This document shows positions 6,074 through 14,089 of a DNA stretch of 64,000 nucleotides, piece by piece; position 1 is the first letter of the stretch; the number at the start of each line of letters is the position of its first letter. The notes under the pieces are model-generated. The model worked only from the letters and a program-made list of their open reading frames with translations. It ran no database searches and was not told the origin of the DNA. The position numbers were made by a program, and so were the translations under genes. The stretch is from assembly GCF_024158125.1 (NCBI RefSeq), contig NZ_JAMZFT010000001.1:806001-870000 (forward strand), written 5' to 3'. The DNA comes from Futiania mangrovi. Lineage in GTDB: Bacteria; Pseudomonadota; Alphaproteobacteria; Futianiales; Futianiaceae.

Positions 6074-7075
6074 GTGACCAAGGACATGCCCATCGCCAGA
6101 TGTACGCTTTCCGCCCTTGCGGTCCTGTCCGTTCTCCTTGCGGCGCCGGGCGTGCGTGCGGGCGAGAACGGCACGCTCAGCTTCGTGCTGGAGAACGATC
6201 TCTTCTACGATGCCGACCGGCACTACACGAACGGCGTGCGTGCCACCTGGCTCTCGCCCCGGCGCGAGCGGTCGAGCCTCGCCGTCCGCGCTGCCCGTCT
6301 CTTTCCGCTCTTTCCGCTGTCCGGCGCGGTGCGAACCGAATACGCGGTCGGCCAGAACATGTACACGCCGACCGACATCACGCTGGCCAATCCGCCGCTC
6401 GACGACCGCCCCTATGCCGGCTGGACCTACGCCAGTGTCGGACTGGTCGCGGAAACCGGCCGCCGGCTGGACCAGTTGTCGCTGAGCCTTGGCATCGTGG
6501 GGCCGGCCTCGCTGGCAGACGAGACGCAGCGGATCGTGCACGAGATCACCGGTGCCGACACCCCGCGCGGCTGGCATACGCAATTGCGCAACGAGCCTGC
6601 GGTGTTGCTCGCCTATCAGCGCAGCTGGCGGGGGTATGTCTCCGACACCTTCCACGGGCTCGGCGTGGACGTGACGCCTCACCTCGGAGTGGCCCTCGGC
6701 AATGTGTTCACCTATGCGAACGGGGGGCTGACCGTGCGGTTCGGCGAGCGCCTGCCGCTCGACTACGGTCCGCCGCGGATCCAGCCGAGCCTGCCGGGCT
6801 CCGGCTTCTTCATCCCGTCCGGAGGGTTCTCCTGGTACCTGTTCGCAGGGGTCGAGGGGAGGGCCGTCGCGCGCAACATCTTCCTCGACGGGAACACGTT
6901 CCGCGACAGCCGGAGCGTCGACAGGAAGGTGCTGGTGGGCGACCTGCAGTACGGCCTTGCCGTGATGTGGGACGGCGTCCGCCTGGCCTATACCCACGTC
7001 ATGCGCACCAAGGAGTTCGACGGACAGGACACGCCGACGGATTTCGGGGCGTTCAGCGTGTCGGTTGCGTTCTGA
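6074..7075 (+). CDS. LpxR-like outer-membrane lipid A deacylase family protein
   Basis: Up to 333 residues with an N-terminal Sec signal peptide ending near GVRAG. It matches the DUF2219/LpxR family of outer-membrane beta-barrels that remove acyl chains from lipid A. The family signature FVLENDLFYDADRHYTNG is at the mature N-terminus. The body alternates short hydrophobic strands as in barrels and ends in an aromatic residue (SVAF), the usual outer-membrane insertion signal. The start could be this GTG or the in-frame ATG at 6086; neither has a convincing ribosome binding site. The 3' end overlaps the convergent cyclase gene by 23 bp. Deacylase activity is a family inference. Confidence 0.8.
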   Translation: MTKDMPIARCTLSALAVLSVLLAAPGVRAGENGTLSFVLENDLFYDADRHYTNGVRATWLSPRRERSSLAVRAARLFPLFPLSGAVRTEYAVGQNMYTPTDITLANPPLDDRPYAGWTYASVGLVAETGRRLDQLSLSLGIVGPASLADETQRIVHEITGADTPRGWHTQLRNEPAVLLAYQRSWRGYVSDTFHGLGVDVTPHLGVALGNVFTYANGGLTVRFGERLPLDYGPPRIQPSLPGSGFFIPSGGFSWYLFAGVEGRAVARNIFLDGNTFRDSRSVDRKVLVGDLQYGLAVMWDGVRLAYTHVMRTKEFDGQDTPTDFGAFSVSVAF

Positions 7076-8201
7076 TGGCGGGCCCGCGCCCAGGCTCGAC
7101 CGGCTGATCTGTCGCCGGCGGGCCGTGGCGGACCGGGCGGATGCCGAGGGGGCGCCCGCTGCCAAGTTCCTCCGAGCCCGTGAGGCGGTGCAGCCGCTGG
7201 CGCCCGAACCCCTTGATGTCGGCGAGGCCGATCTCCTCGGTCCGGAAGATGTCCGGCAGCTTCTCCCGCGTCGTGTCGCAGATGACGATCTCCATCGCTT
7301 CAGCGTGGGATTCCATGCGCGCCGCCAGGTTCACGCCTGGCCCGAAGACATCGTAGACGTACTTCTGGATGCCGACGATGGAGCCGACGACCGGTCCCGT
7401 CGCCACGCCGATGCGCGCCCGCCACTGATGCTGGTGGGTCTCGTTGCGGCGCTCGAGGAAGTGCAGCATCCGCAACGCGACGCCCGCGATGTTGGCGGCG
7501 TGCTCGGGCGTTTCCTCCGGCATCCCGGAGACCGCGAGATAGGCGTCGCCGATGGTCTTCAGCCGCTCGCAGCCGAACTGCTCCACAATCCGGTCGAAGG
7601 CGGTGAAGATGTCGTTCAGTTCCTGGATCAGGGCGGGCGGGTCGGCGGTCACGGCCATGTCGGTGAAGCCCACGAAGTCGAGCATCAGGATCGTGACATG
7701 GTCGAAGCGGCGCGGCGTGGTCACGCCGAACTGGCGCCACTCCTCGTAGACGGTCTTGGGCATGATGTTGAGCAGCACGCGCTCGACCCGTTCCTTCTCC
7801 TTGCGCAGGTCGCGGTTCTGCTTCTCCACCATCGTCGAATAGGACTGGATCATGTATTCCAGCTCCCGCAGCTTGGAGACGTTCTGGCATTCGACCAGCA
7901 GGACGGTGCCGCCCTCGCGCGCCTCCTCGGTGACCTGGGCGGCGACGCTGATCCGCTTGCGTCCCGCCTGGATCTCCGTCTCGAAGGCGTAGTGGCGTCC
8001 CGCGGCGAGGCGGGCGGACATCCGCTCCGGATCGAAGCCGGACAGCAACGCCGGCAGGTGCGCGGCGGCCGCTCCGTCGAGCCCGAACCACTCCCTGAAG
8101 CGGGAGTTGGCGAAGATGACGCGCAAGTCTCCCGGCTCGGCGACGGCGAGGCCGACACCTACGGAATCGAGCAGCAGCGTGTGCAGGCGGTCCATGTCCA
8201 T
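7053..8201 (-). CDS. PAS-domain class III adenylate cyclase
   Basis: A 382-residue soluble protein: PAS-like sensor (about 10-110), coiled-coil linker (about 112-147, rich in E/K/R), and class III nucleotide cyclase domain (about 165-345). All catalytic residues are present: metal-binding Asp175 (MLDFVGFTD) and Asp219, base-selecting Lys215 (RLKTIGDAYL) and Asp284 (YDVFG), and transition-state Asn291 and Arg295 (GVNLAARMES). The Lys/Asp pair is the ATP-selecting type, so cAMP is the predicted product rather than cGMP. The start was placed at 8201, since an upstream extension would run through the globin gene. It follows the globin by 19 bp. A 40-residue Arg/Gly/Pro-rich tail overlaps lpxR. 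Confidence 0.9.
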   Translation of the reverse strand: MDMDRLHTLLLDSVGVGLAVAEPGDLRVIFANSRFREWFGLDGAAAAHLPALLSGFDPERMSARLAAGRHYAFETEIQAGRKRISVAAQVTEEAREGGTVLLVECQNVSKLRELEYMIQSYSTMVEKQNRDLRKEKERVERVLLNIMPKTVYEEWRQFGVTTPRRFDHVTILMLDFVGFTDMAVTADPPALIQELNDIFTAFDRIVEQFGCERLKTIGDAYLAVSGMPEETPEHAANIAGVALRMLHFLERRNETHQHQWRARIGVATGPVVGSIVGIQKYVYDVFGPGVNLAARMESHAEAMEIVICDTTREKLPDIFRTEEIGLADIKGFGRQRLHRLTGSEELGSGRPLGIRPVRHGPPATDQPVEPGRGPAIRTQPTR

Positions 8202-8220: not shown

Positions 8221-8616
8221 TCAGCCCTGACCCTGCGCGACGACGAGCGTGCGGCGGCTGACGAAGGCATGCAGCACCGTATCGACGTCGGCGGGGTCGA
8301 GGTCGAAGTCCTCCAGCGTCTCGCGCAGCAGGACGGCCATCTCGTCGAACGCCTCCCCGCTGATGCCGAGCCGGGCATGCACGCGGCGCAGCGTCTCGTC
8401 GTTGAAGCTCGCGGGGCCGCCCATCATCGATGCGAAGAACTTCGTCTGGTGGTCGATGAGGCGCGCCATGTCGATCTCCTCGAAATAGGGCGCGAGGAGA
8501 TCGCTCTCGCCGACGCGGTCATAGAAGCTCATGACCATGCGGCTGACCCTTGCGAAGCCGCCGCATCGGTCGAAGACGGCAGGGCCTGCGGGGGGCGTGT
8601 GTGCGGTCGCGTTCAT
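8221..8616 (-). CDS. Group 1 truncated hemoglobin
   Basis: A 131-residue 2-on-2 globin resembling mycobacterial HbN. It has the GG motif between A and B helices (CGG, residues 18-20), B10 Tyr32 (SFYDRV), the EIDMARLIDHQ..F E-helix region, GGP at 66-68, and the proximal heme-ligating His80 in RRVHARLGIS. Group 1 globins bind O2 and NO and often detoxify NO. The start overlaps the SCO stop by 4 bp (ATGA), and the stop lies 19 bp before the adenylate cyclase, so all three are probably one message. The cyclase next door has its own PAS domain; whether the globin feeds a gas signal to it is inference. Confidence 0.9.
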   Translation of the reverse strand: MNATAHTPPAGPAVFDRCGGFARVSRMVMSFYDRVGESDLLAPYFEEIDMARLIDHQTKFFASMMGGPASFNDETLRRVHARLGISGEAFDEMAVLLRETLEDFDLDPADVDTVLHAFVSRRTLVVAQGQG

Positions 8617-9338
8617 TGGCGTGGGTCTCCTTGCCTGGTTCTTGCGGCGGGGGACGTGCCGCCAATCAGGGTCAGCACGTCGTTCAGCACCAGGCGCGGG
8701 TCGAGGAAGTCGGCGCTGTAGATGTTCCTGACCTGGCCGGCGTCGTCGATCAGCATCACCCGCAGCAGATGGCTGTAGGGGCCGGAGGGATCGGCCGGAT
8801 TTGCCTTCGCCATCACGGGCTGGTCGTAGGCGTCGAGCACCGGTTCAATCGTCTCCTCGTCCGGCGCGGTCAGGAACAGCCAGCGGGGCGGCCTGGCGTC
8901 GTCGGCGCGCAGGTGGCGCGCGTATTCCCCCATGCGGGCGGGCGTGTCGTGGGCGGGGTCGAAGCTGACCGAGACCAGCTGCAACTTTCCCGCCACCTCC
9001 GGCATCTCGCCCGCCAGCGCCTGAAGGTCCGTCATCCGCATCGCCGCGACCGGGCAGATGTTGCCGCAGCGGGTGTACATGAACGCCATCACCGTGATCC
9101 GGTCCCGGAACAGCCGGGCGAGATGGTGGGCCGCGCCGAACTCGTCCAGCAGGAGGGCATCGGCCGCCGGACGGATGCGCGGCAGGGAATAGGTGCCGGG
9201 GGCGGCGAGGGCGAAGGCGTAGCCGTCGGCGGGGCCCGTGACGGTGTGCGTGGGGTTCGCGGCATCGTCGTGGGCGATGGCAGGCGCTGCCAGCAGAAGC
9301 GTGGCGAGGGCCGCCAGCAGGGGTGCATTGCGGGTCAT
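8613..9338 (-). CDS. SCO1/SenC-type copper chaperone
   Basis: A 241-residue exported thioredoxin-fold protein with a cleavable signal peptide (to about residue 22, APAIAH). The copper site is complete: CxxxC at Cys91 and Cys95 (YTRCGNICP) and the distant His in GPYSHLLRVMLID. SCO proteins deliver Cu(I) to cytochrome oxidase CuA or other copper proteins. Here it follows the methanethiol oxidase gene by 72 bp in the same direction, as in described mtoX clusters, so it probably loads copper into that enzyme. It is coupled by ATGA overlap to the globin. The ribosome binding site is GAGGACAAGGACC. Confidence 0.92.
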   Translation of the reverse strand: MTRNAPLLAALATLLLAAPAIAHDDAANPTHTVTGPADGYAFALAAPGTYSLPRIRPAADALLLDEFGAAHHLARLFRDRITVMAFMYTRCGNICPVAAMRMTDLQALAGEMPEVAGKLQLVSVSFDPAHDTPARMGEYARHLRADDARPPRWLFLTAPDEETIEPVLDAYDQPVMAKANPADPSGPYSHLLRVMLIDDAGQVRNIYSADFLDPRLVLNDVLTLIGGTSPAARTRQGDPRQ

Positions 9339-9410: not shown

Positions 9411-10727
9411 TCAGCTTCCGTAGAGATCGCGGGAGCCGAACCGCATCAGGTGCGGGCGGCCCAGCCCCTCCGCCAGGAAGTCGATCTCGAAGCGGGGCAC
9501 CAGTTCCTTGCCGGTCCAGTCGTAGGCCTTCAGGAACTGCTCGTTGTCCGCCCCCGTCTTGTCCCAGTTCGCGAGCAGCGAGCTGGTGTAGTAGACGCGC
9601 TCGCCGTCCCAGCTTTGCGAGACCATGTTCACCTGCGCGCCGATCTTCTTCTCGTGGATCAGCTTCGGGGCGAACGGGTCGGTCACGTCGTAGATGCGCG
9701 TCATCCCGTCCATGAAGCTGTCTACGAACAGCGTGCTGTCGTCGGCGCTGAGGCTGATGTCGACCGGCAGCGGCATCTTGGAGGGATCGCCCACCTCGCC
9801 GACCTTCCGGGCGTGCCATTCCTGGTTCTCGTCCTCGTGGATCAGCCAGATCTCGGAGGTGAGCGCCGTCGTGGTGAAGGCGTAATTGTTGTTCTCGCCC
9901 CAGGCCCAGCGGATCTCGAGGGGGACGCCCGGCACCTCGAACACCTTGCGCGGCGTGCGGGCATGGAAGTCCCACAGCACCATGGTGCCGCCGAACGCCT
10001 TCATGGCTTCGGGATCGTTCACCACCTCGCCCAACGGCCGCATGTAGTTGTCGAGCCCCGTGAAGGAGGACGTGAGCATCACGTTCCGGCGGGGCAGCAC
10101 CCGGGCGTCGTAGCCGTAGCCGTCGGCCTTGGCCGCGTTCTCCGCGCCGCGCGGCTCCTCCGCAGTCGGCATCCAGTGCGTCGCGATGTACTCGCCGTCG
10201 TTCGTATACTCGACGAGGCCGGTCCGGCCGGTTCCGTCCGTGTTGGACAGGCCCGAGATCATCATGCGCCCGGGCAGGGCGTATGCGCCATGCGGGCCGA
10301 CGACGCCGCCGCTCTTCTCCACGAAGTCGTCGATGGTGCGGACGAGCTTCGGGTTCGCCGGATCGGTGGCGATGTCGAAGATCCAGATCATGCTGGTGTC
10401 GAGGCCCTGCACCCAGAAGTGCCGGCGGTCGTCGGTCAGGCCGCCGTGGTGTGCCTCGTGCTGGCCGCCGACGGAGTCGACGTCGATCACCTGCCCGAAG
10501 GTCGGCGAGCCCGAGCGCACGTCCACCGTGACGACCTTGTCGGAGCCGTCTCCGACCCCGTCCATGCCGAGCGTCCAGACATAGACGAACTCCTCCTCGC
10601 CGGTGATCTTGGCCATATAGGGGGACTGGCATGTCTCGTCGGCCAGGGCGGGAGCGGTGGCCGACGCCGCGATTGCCGTTGCCGACACGGTGGCCAGAAG
10701 CCAGGCGTTTGCATGCTTGCGGAACAT
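9411..10727 (-). CDS. mtoX: Methanethiol oxidase (selenium-binding protein 56 family)
   Basis: A 438-residue protein with a Sec signal peptide (cut near APALA, about residue 29), so it is periplasmic. It is a full-length SBP56/MtoX-family beta-propeller, with the His-rich metal site GGQHEAHHGG, PHGAY, and the C-terminal signature GRPHLMRFGSRDLYGS. The enzyme converts methanethiol, O2 and water to formaldehyde, H2S and H2O2 using copper. The following SCO chaperone supports this assignment. The start at 10727 is set by a GGAGG site 7 nt upstream and by the signal peptide. A winged-helix/TPR regulator diverges from it. Some SBP56 proteins have other or unknown roles, so the substrate is inferred. 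Confidence 0.88.
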   Translation of the reverse strand: MFRKHANAWLLATVSATAIAASATAPALADETCQSPYMAKITGEEEFVYVWTLGMDGVGDGSDKVVTVDVRSGSPTFGQVIDVDSVGGQHEAHHGGLTDDRRHFWVQGLDTSMIWIFDIATDPANPKLVRTIDDFVEKSGGVVGPHGAYALPGRMMISGLSNTDGTGRTGLVEYTNDGEYIATHWMPTAEEPRGAENAAKADGYGYDARVLPRRNVMLTSSFTGLDNYMRPLGEVVNDPEAMKAFGGTMVLWDFHARTPRKVFEVPGVPLEIRWAWGENNNYAFTTTALTSEIWLIHEDENQEWHARKVGEVGDPSKMPLPVDISLSADDSTLFVDSFMDGMTRIYDVTDPFAPKLIHEKKIGAQVNMVSQSWDGERVYYTSSLLANWDKTGADNEQFLKAYDWTGKELVPRFEIDFLAEGLGRPHLMRFGSRDLYGS

Positions 10728-10823
10728 CTCTTGCCTCCAATGCACTGGAATATGCCAGCTGTACCGGCCGCGGCTTTCCGCGGCGGGCAGTGACGATCCG
10801 ACACTAGGGCGTGCCCGGCGCCC

Positions 10824-10866
10824 TTGCTTGGAGGCTGTCTGGAGATTGCTTGGAGAAGTGCTGGAT
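10824..10866. promoter_or_regulatory. Direct repeats with 11-bp period (probable winged-helix operator)
   Basis: In the divergent gap between mtoX and the winged-helix regulator, TTGCTTGGAG (10824-10833), CTGTCTGGAG (10835-10844) and TTGCTTGGAG (10846-10855) recur every 11 bp. A weaker fourth unit (core TGGA, 10862-10865) keeps the same phase. Tandem repeats of one helical turn are the usual target of OmpR/PhoB-type winged-helix proteins, and the adjacent gene encodes such a domain. Confidence 0.6.
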
Positions 10867-10905
10867 TCCGGCAATACTGCCCGTGAGGGAGGCGCCGGCA
10901 TTGCC

Positions 10906-12513
10906 ATGATCCACGCCTTCGAGGATATCACGCTCGATACGGCGTTGTTCGAATTGCGCCGCGCGGGAGACGTGGTGCCGGTCGAGCCGCAGGTGTTCGA
11001 GCTTCTGGCCCTCCTTGTGCGCGAGCGTGGCCGGGTCGTCACCAGGGACGAGATCCTCGATGTGGTCTGGAACGGCCGGATCGTCTCGGACGCCGCGCTC
11101 AGCAGCCGGATCAAGGCCGCACGCCGTGCCATCGGCGACGACGGCGAACGCCAGCGGCTGATCCGGACCGTGCGCGGGCGGGGCTTCCGTTTCCTGGGCG
11201 ACGTGCGGGTCGCGGCGCTCCCGGCGGCGGTTGCCGCACCAGCGTTGCCGCCGGAGGGGGAGGGCGATGGGGCCGATCCGGCCCGCGCGGCCGAGGCGCT
11301 CTCACTGCCCTTGCTCGACCGGCCCGCCATCGCGGTCCTGCCGTTTTCCGATGCGACCGGCGACGGGCAGGACAACTATCTCGCCGACGGCCTGACGGAC
11401 GAGGTGATCGCCGCCCTGTCCGCCTGGCGGGTCTTTCCCGTCATCTCGCGCAATACCGCCTTCCGCTTCCGCGGCGCGGGCCAGACGGCGCAGGAGGCGG
11501 GCAGTGCCACCGGCGCGCGGTACCTCGTTACGGGCCGTCTCGTCCGCGATGGTCCGCGGGTCCGGCTCTGGGCGGCGCTGATCGATGCGGCGGAGGACCG
11601 CCAGCTCTGGAGCGGCCGCTTCAACCGCGCCGCCGACCAGATCTTCGACCTTGAGGAGGAATTGGCAGCCGAAGTGGTGAGTGTCCTCGAGCCGGAAATG
11701 CACAATGCGGAGTTCCAGCGCGTGATGCGCAAGCGGCCGGAAAACATGACGGCCTGGGACCTGGCGATGCGGGCCGCCTGGCATGTCAACCGGATGACAC
11801 CGGCCGATCTCGACGCGGCCGACGACCTGGCGCGGCGGGCGGTCGACCTCGATCCGGCCTGGAGCTATCCGCACGCGCTGATCGCCGTCGCCGCCTTCCA
11901 GCGGGCGATGCGGGCATGGTCGGGCGCGGCGGCGGAAACGGCCTTCGTGGAGACCCTGGCCGAGGCGCAGCGGGCGCTGGAGGTCGACCGCAATCTCTGG
12001 ATGGCGCACGCGCTGGCCGGTGTCGGAGAGTTGTGGACGCACCGTCACTACGACCGGGCGCTCGCCCATGTCTACCGGGCGATCCAGCTCAACCCCAGCG
12101 CGGCGTGGTGCTATCACTTCTGCGGCTGCATTGCCGGTTTCGCGGGCGATCTCGACGTTGCGCTTGCACAGGGGCGGCGGGTCTTCCGCGTCGATCCGGC
12201 CTACCCCTACACCGCCGTGGTGGAAGCCGATCTCGCGCTCTGGTCCATGCTGTCGGACGATCTGGGCGAAGCGAGCCTGCATATCGAACGTGCGCTGCAG
12301 TGGGATCCCGACTATGGGCGCGGCTGGCAGCGCTATGTTGCGCTTCACGGCTTGCGGGGCGACCGCGAGAGCAGCGGCCGGGGCATTGCCCGGCTGCGCG
12401 CGCTCGATCAGCCGGTCAGCCGGGACTATCTCGCCTCGACCTATCCGTTCCGGAACCCGGAACATGCAGCGGTCTTCTTCACCGGGCTGCGCCGGGCGGG
12501 CGTCAATGTCTGA
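10906..12513 (+). CDS. Winged-helix transcriptional regulator with TolB-like and TPR domains
   Basis: A 535-residue protein. Residues about 1-100 are an OmpR/PhoB-type winged helix (VEPQVFELLALLVRERG, then GRIVSDAALSSRIKAAR and a GRGFRF wing). About 145-290 is the TolB-N/FlgO-like region starting IAVLPFSDATGD. About 300-535 are helical tetratricopeptide-type repeats. No transmembrane helix is obvious, unlike CadC. Proteins with this TolB-TPR tail often carry a nucleotide cyclase domain at the front; here a DNA-binding domain replaces it. The ATG at 10906 begins the winged helix. It is divergent from mtoX and probably controls it through the 11-bp repeats between them. The inducer is unknown. 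Confidence 0.85.
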   Translation: MIHAFEDITLDTALFELRRAGDVVPVEPQVFELLALLVRERGRVVTRDEILDVVWNGRIVSDAALSSRIKAARRAIGDDGERQRLIRTVRGRGFRFLGDVRVAALPAAVAAPALPPEGEGDGADPARAAEALSLPLLDRPAIAVLPFSDATGDGQDNYLADGLTDEVIAALSAWRVFPVISRNTAFRFRGAGQTAQEAGSATGARYLVTGRLVRDGPRVRLWAALIDAAEDRQLWSGRFNRAADQIFDLEEELAAEVVSVLEPEMHNAEFQRVMRKRPENMTAWDLAMRAAWHVNRMTPADLDAADDLARRAVDLDPAWSYPHALIAVAAFQRAMRAWSGAAAETAFVETLAEAQRALEVDRNLWMAHALAGVGELWTHRHYDRALAHVYRAIQLNPSAAWCYHFCGCIAGFAGDLDVALAQGRRVFRVDPAYPYTAVVEADLALWSMLSDDLGEASLHIERALQWDPDYGRGWQRYVALHGLRGDRESSGRGIARLRALDQPVSRDYLASTYPFRNPEHAAVFFTGLRRAGVNV

Positions 12514-12718
12514 CCGAACCGCCTGGCAGAAGCGCTGCCGGGAACAGGCGCCGCGCCGCGCGTGACAGGCAGTGGCTGCCGGCTGCGAGCGCGCGACGAG
12601 ACCGCGAGGCCAGGCGCCATGCGGCGGCGCTGCGGCGGACCTGTCCCCGCGCGATGTAATGGCGCGTGTCGATGGCGCCGTCGGGGCTGCGTTGAATGTC
12701 GGATGGCATGCCGGTCAT
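12503..12718 (-). CDS. Small basic hypothetical protein
   Basis: A 71-residue ORF starting MTGMPSDIQRSPDGAIDT, then rich in Arg and Ala with a helical, basic C-terminal half. An AAGGA ribosome binding site sits 7 nt before the ATG. The N-terminal pattern (short polar lead, DGxID, then a basic helix) resembles small uncharacterised alphaproteobacterial proteins, but I cannot name a family with confidence. It overlaps the end of the TPR regulator on the other strand by 11 bp and diverges from the hydrolase-fusion gene at 12866. It may equally be a chance ORF in GC-rich DNA. Confidence 0.45.
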   Translation of the reverse strand: MTGMPSDIQRSPDGAIDTRHYIARGQVRRSAAAWRLASRSRRALAAGSHCLSRAARRLFPAALLPGGSVRH

Positions 12719-12865
12719 GGCGGGGTCCTTTCCGTGTTGGCGTGCCGACATGCTGACGTGGCCCGGCGGCTCCCGCTTGGGGACAGGCTTGCCGTTTCCT
12801 GGTGAAGTTGTGGATTTTCCCGTGTGGCGGGGCGCGGGCTGAAGAAGCGTGCTAGGCTCATTTCC

Positions 12866-14089
12866 ATGATCTACCGGTTCGGCACATGCGAGTTGCGTGT
12901 CGGAAGCCATGAACTGATCGTCGACGGCGTCCCCATTCCCGTCGAGCCGATGACGTTCGACCTGCTGCGCGTCCTTGCGTCCCGCCCCGGGGAATTGCTC
13001 TCGCGGGACTGCCTGATCGCGGAGGTCTGGCGCGGAAGGATCGTCTCCGACGCCGCTGTCGCCTCGCAGATCGCGGCAGCCCGCGCCGCAATCGGCGATG
13101 ACGGCGCACGTCAGGCGCTGATCCGCACGGTGCCGCGCCGCGGAATTCGTTTTTTGCCCGAGGTGACGGCAACGGCGGAGGGGGAAGCGCCCGCGCCTGG
13201 CCCCGACCTGGGCCCCGACCGGGCCCCCTGCACGGGCCCCGAGAGTGGCCCGATGCGGCAGGTGGTGCGCTTCTGCCGGTCCGCCGACGGCACGGCAATC
13301 GCCCATGCGGCCTTCGGGTCCGGTCCCCACCTCGTCCGGGCAGGGCATTGGCTGACCCATCTGGAGCATGACTGGCAGAGCCCGCTCTGGCGGCCGTTTC
13401 TCGATGCGCTGGGGGCGCGTTTCACCGTGACCCGCTACGACCAGCGGGGCAACGGGCTCTCGGATTGGGATGCAGCGGACTTCACGCTCGACCGCTGCGT
13501 CGAGGATCTCGAGGCTGTCGTCGATGCACAGGGGCTCGACCGCTTCGTGCTCTACGGCACGTCCCAGGGCGCGCCCATCGCCGCGGCCTATGCCGCCCGG
13601 CACCCCGACCGGGTCAGCCGCCTGGTCCTCCACGGCGGCTACCGGCGGGGCCGCCTCGTGCGCGCGAACGCGGAGGAGCGGGCACAGGGGGAGGCCCTGC
13701 TGACGCTCATCCGCCACGGCTGGGGCAAGTCCGGCAGCAGCTTCATCCAGGCCTTCGCCTCGATGTTCATTCCGGGAGGCTCGCGCGAGCAGGTCCTCAG
13801 CCTGACCGACCTGCAGCGCCGGACCACCTCGCCGGAGAACGCCGCGCGGCTGAGGGAAGCCATCGACAGGTTCGACGTGACCGGGGCTCTGGGCACGATC
13901 TCGGTGCCGACCCTGGTCATGCACGCCCGCGACGACAGCGTCCAGCCGTTGGAGCAGGGGCGCAAGCTCGCCGCATCGATCCCGAACGCCCGGTTCCAGA
14001 TGCTGGAGAGCGAGAACCACGTCGTGCTGCCGCAGGAACCGGCATGGGAGGCGTTCTTCACGGCGCTGGCAAGGTTTGCGGAGGAGTGA
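12866..14089 (+). CDS. Winged-helix domain fused to an alpha/beta hydrolase
   Basis: A 407-residue two-part protein. Residues about 1-100 are an OmpR/PhoB-type winged helix (VEPMTFDLLRVLASRPGELL, RGRIVSDAAVASQIAAAR, RRGIRFLPEV) closely like that of the regulator at 10906. After a Pro-rich linker, about 135-407 form an alpha/beta hydrolase with nucleophile Ser in YGTSQGAP, acidic residue in MHARDDSVQP and His in SENHVVLP. The oxyanion-region motif is HWLTHLEHDW. The hydrolase may be a ligand-binding or signal-degrading module. The start was set at the ATG beginning the winged helix. It stands alone, convergent with the NfeD gene. Confidence 0.85.
   Translation: MIYRFGTCELRVGSHELIVDGVPIPVEPMTFDLLRVLASRPGELLSRDCLIAEVWRGRIVSDAAVASQIAAARAAIGDDGARQALIRTVPRRGIRFLPEVTATAEGEAPAPGPDLGPDRAPCTGPESGPMRQVVRFCRSADGTAIAHAAFGSGPHLVRAGHWLTHLEHDWQSPLWRPFLDALGARFTVTRYDQRGNGLSDWDAADFTLDRCVEDLEAVVDAQGLDRFVLYGTSQGAPIAAAYAARHPDRVSRLVLHGGYRRGRLVRANAEERAQGEALLTLIRHGWGKSGSSFIQAFASMFIPGGSREQVLSLTDLQRRTTSPENAARLREAIDRFDVTGALGTISVPTLVMHARDDSVQPLEQGRKLAASIPNARFQMLESENHVVLPQEPAWEAFFTALARFAEE

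Follow-up and report, generated by a model that had tools for sequence, protein, structure and literature searches.

The intergenic region between mtoX, the predicted gene for a methanethiol oxidase, and a regulator gene with an OmpR/PhoB-type winged helix in Futiania mangrovi contains a short array of direct repeats spaced at 11 bp. The questions raised by this locus are which protein recognizes the array and which of the two flanking genes it serves. A sequence-only reading had claimed that the repeats are the operator of the neighbouring regulator and that regulators of this class control sulfur-C1 metabolism. All coordinates given here refer to the window, that is, the whole stretch of 64,000 nucleotides that was analysed.

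The array and the adjacent regulator

The 11-bp repeats first noticed at 10824-10866 are real. TTGCTTGGAG starts at 10824 and again at 10846, with CTGTCTGGAG between them at 10835, as originally described, and the TGGA core said to continue in phase past the third repeat is present and represents a fourth unit. Read in the register that relatives conserve, the predicted operator array comprises four 11-bp units, GCTTGGAGGCT, GTCTGGAGATT, GCTTGGAGAAG and TGCTGGATTCC (10826..10869, forward strand), three of which are strong and one weaker. Tandem Repeats Finder reports a single array in the intergenic region (10824-10856, period 11). The regulator does start shortly past the array, although its ATG at 10906 lies 36 bp after it and not 40 bp as had been stated.

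By itself the repeat is just modestly improbable: in 3000 dinucleotide shuffles of the 178 bp between the two genes, its lag-11 self-match was attained 10 times (~0.003), and this leaves some room for a chance repeat in GC-rich intergenic DNA. It is the comparative tests, with a foreign-trained matrix and a sequence profile, that are decisive for the reality of the array. A weight matrix derived from other genomes only places it at rank 1 among ~128,000 window positions, and a profile search of the whole genome finds it with E = 1.2e-6. Chance can be virtually discounted, since independent models built from other genomes, and all the comparative results described below, refute it.

The regulator (10906..12513, forward strand) consists of an N-terminal OmpR/PhoB-type winged helix (wHTH), a linker, a CadC/TolB-like α/β part and TPR helices. 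The sole domain matched by Pfam is Trans_reg_C (PF00486) at residues 23-96, with 61.9 bits against a cut-off of 26.2; neither a receiver nor a BTAD domain is found by Pfam. The AlphaFold2 model, for which 24 homologues were aligned, has a mean pLDDT of 87.5 and shows the winged helix at residues 1-104 and a low-confidence linker at 105-134, followed by the α/β part and the TPR helices. Foldseek searches with this model return TPR proteins and the periplasmic domain of CadC (3ly7) over 313 columns. In NCBIfam the protein lies nearest to CadC, HilA/EilA and PhoB, all far under the family cut-offs: the best match of the winged helix is CadC (72 bits vs a cut-off of 400), while the HilA/EilA model gives 61.7 bits (cut-off 589). 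A sequence search of solved structures places the winged helix closest to PhoB (2.5e-14). A hydropathy scan and the linker sequence reveal no membrane segment (19-residue maximum 1.46), so the regulator is taken to be soluble. Pfam, AlphaFold2, Foldseek and NCBIfam agree with the earlier description of a winged helix that has TolB-like and TPR regions in place of a receiver.

One homologue (L002/L066, G001:C42) is ~51% identical to the window regulator in its TolB/TPR part and has a SARP-like N-terminal DNA-binding part instead, the DNA-binding domain having apparently been swapped. It adjoins a methyltransferase and a globin gene.

Arrays across the regulator class

A search of the genome contigs with the full-length regulator gave no matches, and the comparison set was obtained by alignment of the winged helix only. 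It consists of 80 named loci from GTDB genomes encoding a homologous winged helix, each with its 150-bp upstream region. Autocorrelation over these upstream regions peaks at lag 11 (z 7.2) and again at lag 22 (z 3.5). De novo expectation maximization for three tandem units in 73 non-redundant upstream regions recovers YYTGGAGATT at a period of 11 only, with a log-likelihood of 357; periods of 8-10 and 12-14 reach at most 124, and shuffled sequences reach 33-47 at periods of 10-12. Arrays of three to five units occur at ~45 of the 80 loci. These are mostly alphaproteobacterial, with some in gammaproteobacteria, betaproteobacteria, Myxococcota and one actinobacterial MAG. No array is detectable at the other ~35 loci, which include fused cyclase-wHTH proteins and actinobacterial ones, and the homologue on pSymB of Sinorhizobium meliloti has a degenerate three-unit array only.

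Within the window the foreign-trained matrix places arrays at 10826 and 12775 at ranks 1 and 2. The profile R1, built from 28 foreign arrays, finds two sites only in the 3.39-Mb F. mangrovi genome at E<=10, one before each of two adjacent regulators of the class. Among 385 genomes of the taxonomic class, 17 of the 20 that bear a site belong to the 38 with this wHTH class (hypergeometric P = 1.6e-16). In a search of 20 genomes at E<=0.1, 17 of the 20 sites found are directly upstream of a regulator gene of the class. Weak matches in small genomes devoid of the winged helix (G105, G320, G349) were treated as chance.

The array could in principle be bound by a different OmpR-family protein, such as a two-component response regulator: repeats of 11 bp are typical throughout the wHTH superfamily, SARPs being an example, and response regulators with a winged helix are common in these genomes. 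Against this, the sites are found almost only in genomes that encode the present wHTH class, beside its genes, and binding by another family member is accordingly very unlikely. The same co-occurrence favours the earlier proposal that the repeats are the operator of a receiver-less OmpR/PhoB-type winged helix, and the array is very probably the docking site of the adjacent regulator.

The -10 element and the direction of the array

Alignment of 55 non-redundant arrays by their first unit (GCTTG) brings out conserved columns of T and A on the side of the array away from the regulator. Read in the direction of divergent transcription, they form a -10 hexamer. YAnnnT is present 19 nt from the array, on the divergent side, in 29 of the 55 cases, against a mean of 0.9 at other gaps (Poisson 2e-33); the strict motif is missing at this gap in the other 26, some of which have it shifted by one base. 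Of 13 arrays that come from genomes of the taxonomic class outside the R1 training set, 12 have TA or CA at gap 19. Alignment on the far end splits the -10 peak into 11-bp steps, and the promoter-proximal unit is therefore the anchored one. Relative to the -10 element this nearest unit spans roughly -32 to -42, which is the -35 position, and the further units reach upstream to ~-75. Most array loci have, 27-155 nt past the -10, the beginning of an ORF that has an ATG start codon and a sequence resembling a ribosome-binding site.

In the window the predicted -10 element of the mtoX promoter is TAGTGT (10801..10806, reverse strand), separated from the array by the 19-nt gap (10807..10825) and situated 73 nt before the mtoX ATG. 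There is no -35 hexamer, the first array unit occupying that place, and a consensus scan of the mtoX-regulator intergenic region detects no consensus sigma-70 promoter. A combined model of array, gap and -10 that was trained without this genome recovers the window promoter with E 9.5e-10, the second best of 38 genomes. Sequence comparison shows the array, its 11-bp period, its link to the wHTH class, its polarity and a predicted -10 at a fixed distance, an arrangement repeated in dozens of unrelated bacteria.

A lesser -10 count on the regulator side, at gap 46 (8 of 55), was rejected, part of it being coding sequence and part coming from a single lineage. A few weak secondary matches (L105, L129, L070:875) break the -10 rule and may be chance. 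At three loci (L135, L145, L147) GGTATYCT stands a few nucleotides before the regulator ATG, which suggests that the regulator transcript of that lineage is nearly leaderless.

Several arrays are situated away from regulator genes, and these are informative because just one gene can be the target there. They are found behind an SCO4226-like gene (L199), an OsmC gene (L077) and a cupin gene (L193), and at ECF sigma genes (L096, L117, L088) identified by eye from the translation; all of them read away from their gene. So do the arrays at L090 and L097, which precede a cysteine-synthase gene, the first gene of an operon that also contains a cyclase-wHTH regulator. Most of these arrays show TA or CA where the -10 is expected, with the register of L097 shifted by one unit. 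As the geometry is that of the mtoX side, the divergent gene can be argued to be the target, with autoregulation secondary. At L090, L097 and G092:C75 the gene that follows the cysteine-synthase gene encodes a cyclase-winged helix-TolB/TPR fusion, and the two apparently form one operon.

The possibility that the array is solely an autoregulatory operator, its position beside mtoX being incidental, has to be weighed at this point. In most loci the array is found immediately before the regulator gene and reads towards it, and the pairing with mtoX is not conserved. The conserved -10 at fixed spacing nevertheless points the other way, no comparable fixed element exists on the regulator side, and the arrays at non-regulator genes are oriented as a divergent target would predict. 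Given the alignment around the -10 and the orientation of the secondary arrays, we regard a purely autoregulatory array as quite unlikely. Autoregulation is possible alongside control of the divergent gene, and is not required, because the regulator gene lies on the other side without fixed promoter spacing.

The second array in the window (12775..12818, forward strand; GCTTGGGGACA, GGCTTGCCGTT, TCCTGGTGAAG and TTGTGGATTTT), recovered by both the foreign-trained matrix and R1, is weaker and is arranged similarly. A -10-like CAGCAT (12750..12755, reverse strand) lies across a 19-nt gap. On the other side is the second regulator of the class, a winged helix fused to an α/β hydrolase according to Pfam and NCBIfam (12866..14089, forward strand). 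The predicted target is a small ORF of 71 residues (12503..12718, reverse strand), which begins MTGMPSDIQRSPDGAIDTRHY, contains the motif PDGAIDTRHY and has no match in Pfam or NCBIfam. A similar small ORF faces similar regulators in ~10 other genomes (e.g. L079, L137, L138, L141, L145, L147, L181, L203), and this protein of 60-90 residues with the motif PDGSIDxxHY mostly accompanies regulators of the winged-helix/α/β-hydrolase type.

Probable mtoX control and the predicted targets of the class

The predicted target, mtoX (9414..10727, reverse strand, the start codon ending at 10727), encodes a methanethiol oxidase (SBP56) according to the NCBIfam equivalog NF052453 (709.8 bits vs a cut-off of 650). 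It is followed with operon-like spacing by genes for an SCO1/SenC copper chaperone (8613..9338, reverse strand) and a truncated-haemoglobin-like globin (8221..8616, reverse strand), the latter overlapping the end of the SCO1 gene, and the three are probably one operon. A PAS-nucleotide cyclase-like gene (7053-8200, reverse strand) comes after the globin gene and may extend it. The cluster differs from most described mtoX operons (PMC5739008) in that no MauG gene is seen directly in it. Of the mtoX homologues detected in the 385 genomes, none is adjacent to a regulator of the window type, and the weight matrix finds no convincing array upstream of other mtoX genes. At L057 (G094) a gene at 1158-1457 resembling the SCO4226-like (PF14026) protein of L199 stands directly before mtoX in another family, and in G358 a gene resembling this protein has its own array next to a regulator.

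The evidence makes it likely that the array is bound by the adjacent soluble CadC-like activator, replaces the -35 element and turns on the divergent mtoX-SCO1-globin operon. Several winged-helix domains would bind head to tail on the same face of the DNA, one per 11-bp unit. The mtoX-proximal unit would stand in for the -35 element of a promoter running away from the regulator, with TAGTGT 19 nt from the array, and the bound regulator would recruit RNA polymerase in a class II-like manner, switching on the operon. The signal would probably be sensed by the CadC/TolB-like and TPR part. We infer binding by the adjacent regulator, activation over repression, mtoX as the target in vivo and the signal.

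Repression of the divergent gene, relieved by the signal, would place the regulator over the polymerase site. The array does overlap the -35 position, also a place where repressors bind; the regulator gene apparently has no array-linked promoter, as would suit a constitutively made repressor; and a fixed -10 is compatible with a repressor that blocks polymerase. The lack of a -35 hexamer under the array, with the -10 at one exact distance, speaks for activation instead, and arrays of three to five units reaching ~-75 have the geometry of PhoB/SARP-type activation. Repression is thus unlikely, and activation is the preferred reading.

Control of sulfur-C1 metabolism, as first proposed, is probable in the case of mtoX, given that the conserved -10 at the fixed 19-nt gap points to the divergent gene. 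It is not supported as a generality, because methyltransferases lie opposite the nearest orthologues and the class as a whole faces a variety of other genes. The mtoX-regulator pairing is a single occurrence. SAM-dependent methyltransferases are the commonest divergent genes, and the closest orthologues of the window regulator (46-53% identical; L109, L115, L132 and G153) face them. The remainder include genes for OsmC, peroxiredoxin, tautomerase, α/β hydrolases, DUF1326, cysteine synthase, a MauG-like cytochrome, a glutathione-dependent formaldehyde-activating enzyme and the small uncharacterised PDGSIDxxHY protein. Several of these would fit the handling of thiols, sulfide, formaldehyde or peroxide, as a suggestive pattern only; the same compounds are the substrate and products of methanethiol oxidase.

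Relation to known regulators

The regulator would work most like the SARP activators, yet it is not a SARP. AfsR and PimR of Streptomyces bind two or three heptamers spaced at 11 bp, cooperatively and with one monomer per repeat, at the -35 of the promoter they activate or close to it; in related clusters the PimR operator lies between regulator and target genes (PMC10936776, PMC5930380). The window array has the 11-bp spacing too, and like SARPs the window regulator combines a winged helix of the OmpR type at its N terminus with TPR or TPR-like parts, but Pfam finds no BTAD domain in it. The SARP 3' repeat is 8 bp from the -10, and the window array, at 19 nt, stands approximately one helical turn further away. 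The repeats differ, being TGGCAAG/CGGCAAG for PimR and CTCCAAG in the window in target orientation.

In the pho box, too, direct repeats of 11 bp occupy the -35 position, as they do in the window array, and among solved structures the winged helix is nearest in sequence to that of PhoB. In contrast to PhoB/OmpR-type response regulators, the window regulator has no receiver (Pfam), and the arrays of its class have three to five units rather than two, another repeat sequence and another -10 distance. It resembles the CadC/ToxR one-component regulators in its best NCBIfam match and in the fold of its C-terminal part, which is like the CadC periplasmic domain, but unlike CadC it is soluble, with no transmembrane segment, and scores far under the family cut-off. 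With HilA/EilA it shares a winged helix followed by TPR-like helices and the absence of a receiver, again at a score far under the cut-off. The operator and targets of HilA differ from those of the window regulator.

Among alphaproteobacteria (rhizobia, roseobacters), OmpR-type regulators that lack a receiver and have TolB/TPR or hydrolase parts are common; they are present in other phyla as well, and the open full-text literature searched yielded no described operator for them. It is somewhat more probable than not that the arrays mark an undescribed and widespread promoter class, in which soluble CadC-like or wHTH-α/β-hydrolase activators would each control one divergent neighbour through three to five 11-bp CTTGGAG units 19 nt from the -10. 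Regulator, array and promoter would travel as a module in which the target is exchanged (methyltransferase, OsmC, tautomerase, DUF1326, cysteine synthase and, here, methanethiol oxidase).

In Ruegeria an upstream IclR-family gene is involved in the regulation of mtoX (PMC5739008), and a different candidate activator can now be named for this gene. The receiver-less class as a whole gains a concrete, testable DNA target, and owing to the fixed array-to-promoter geometry the predicted target gene may be read directly from sequence.
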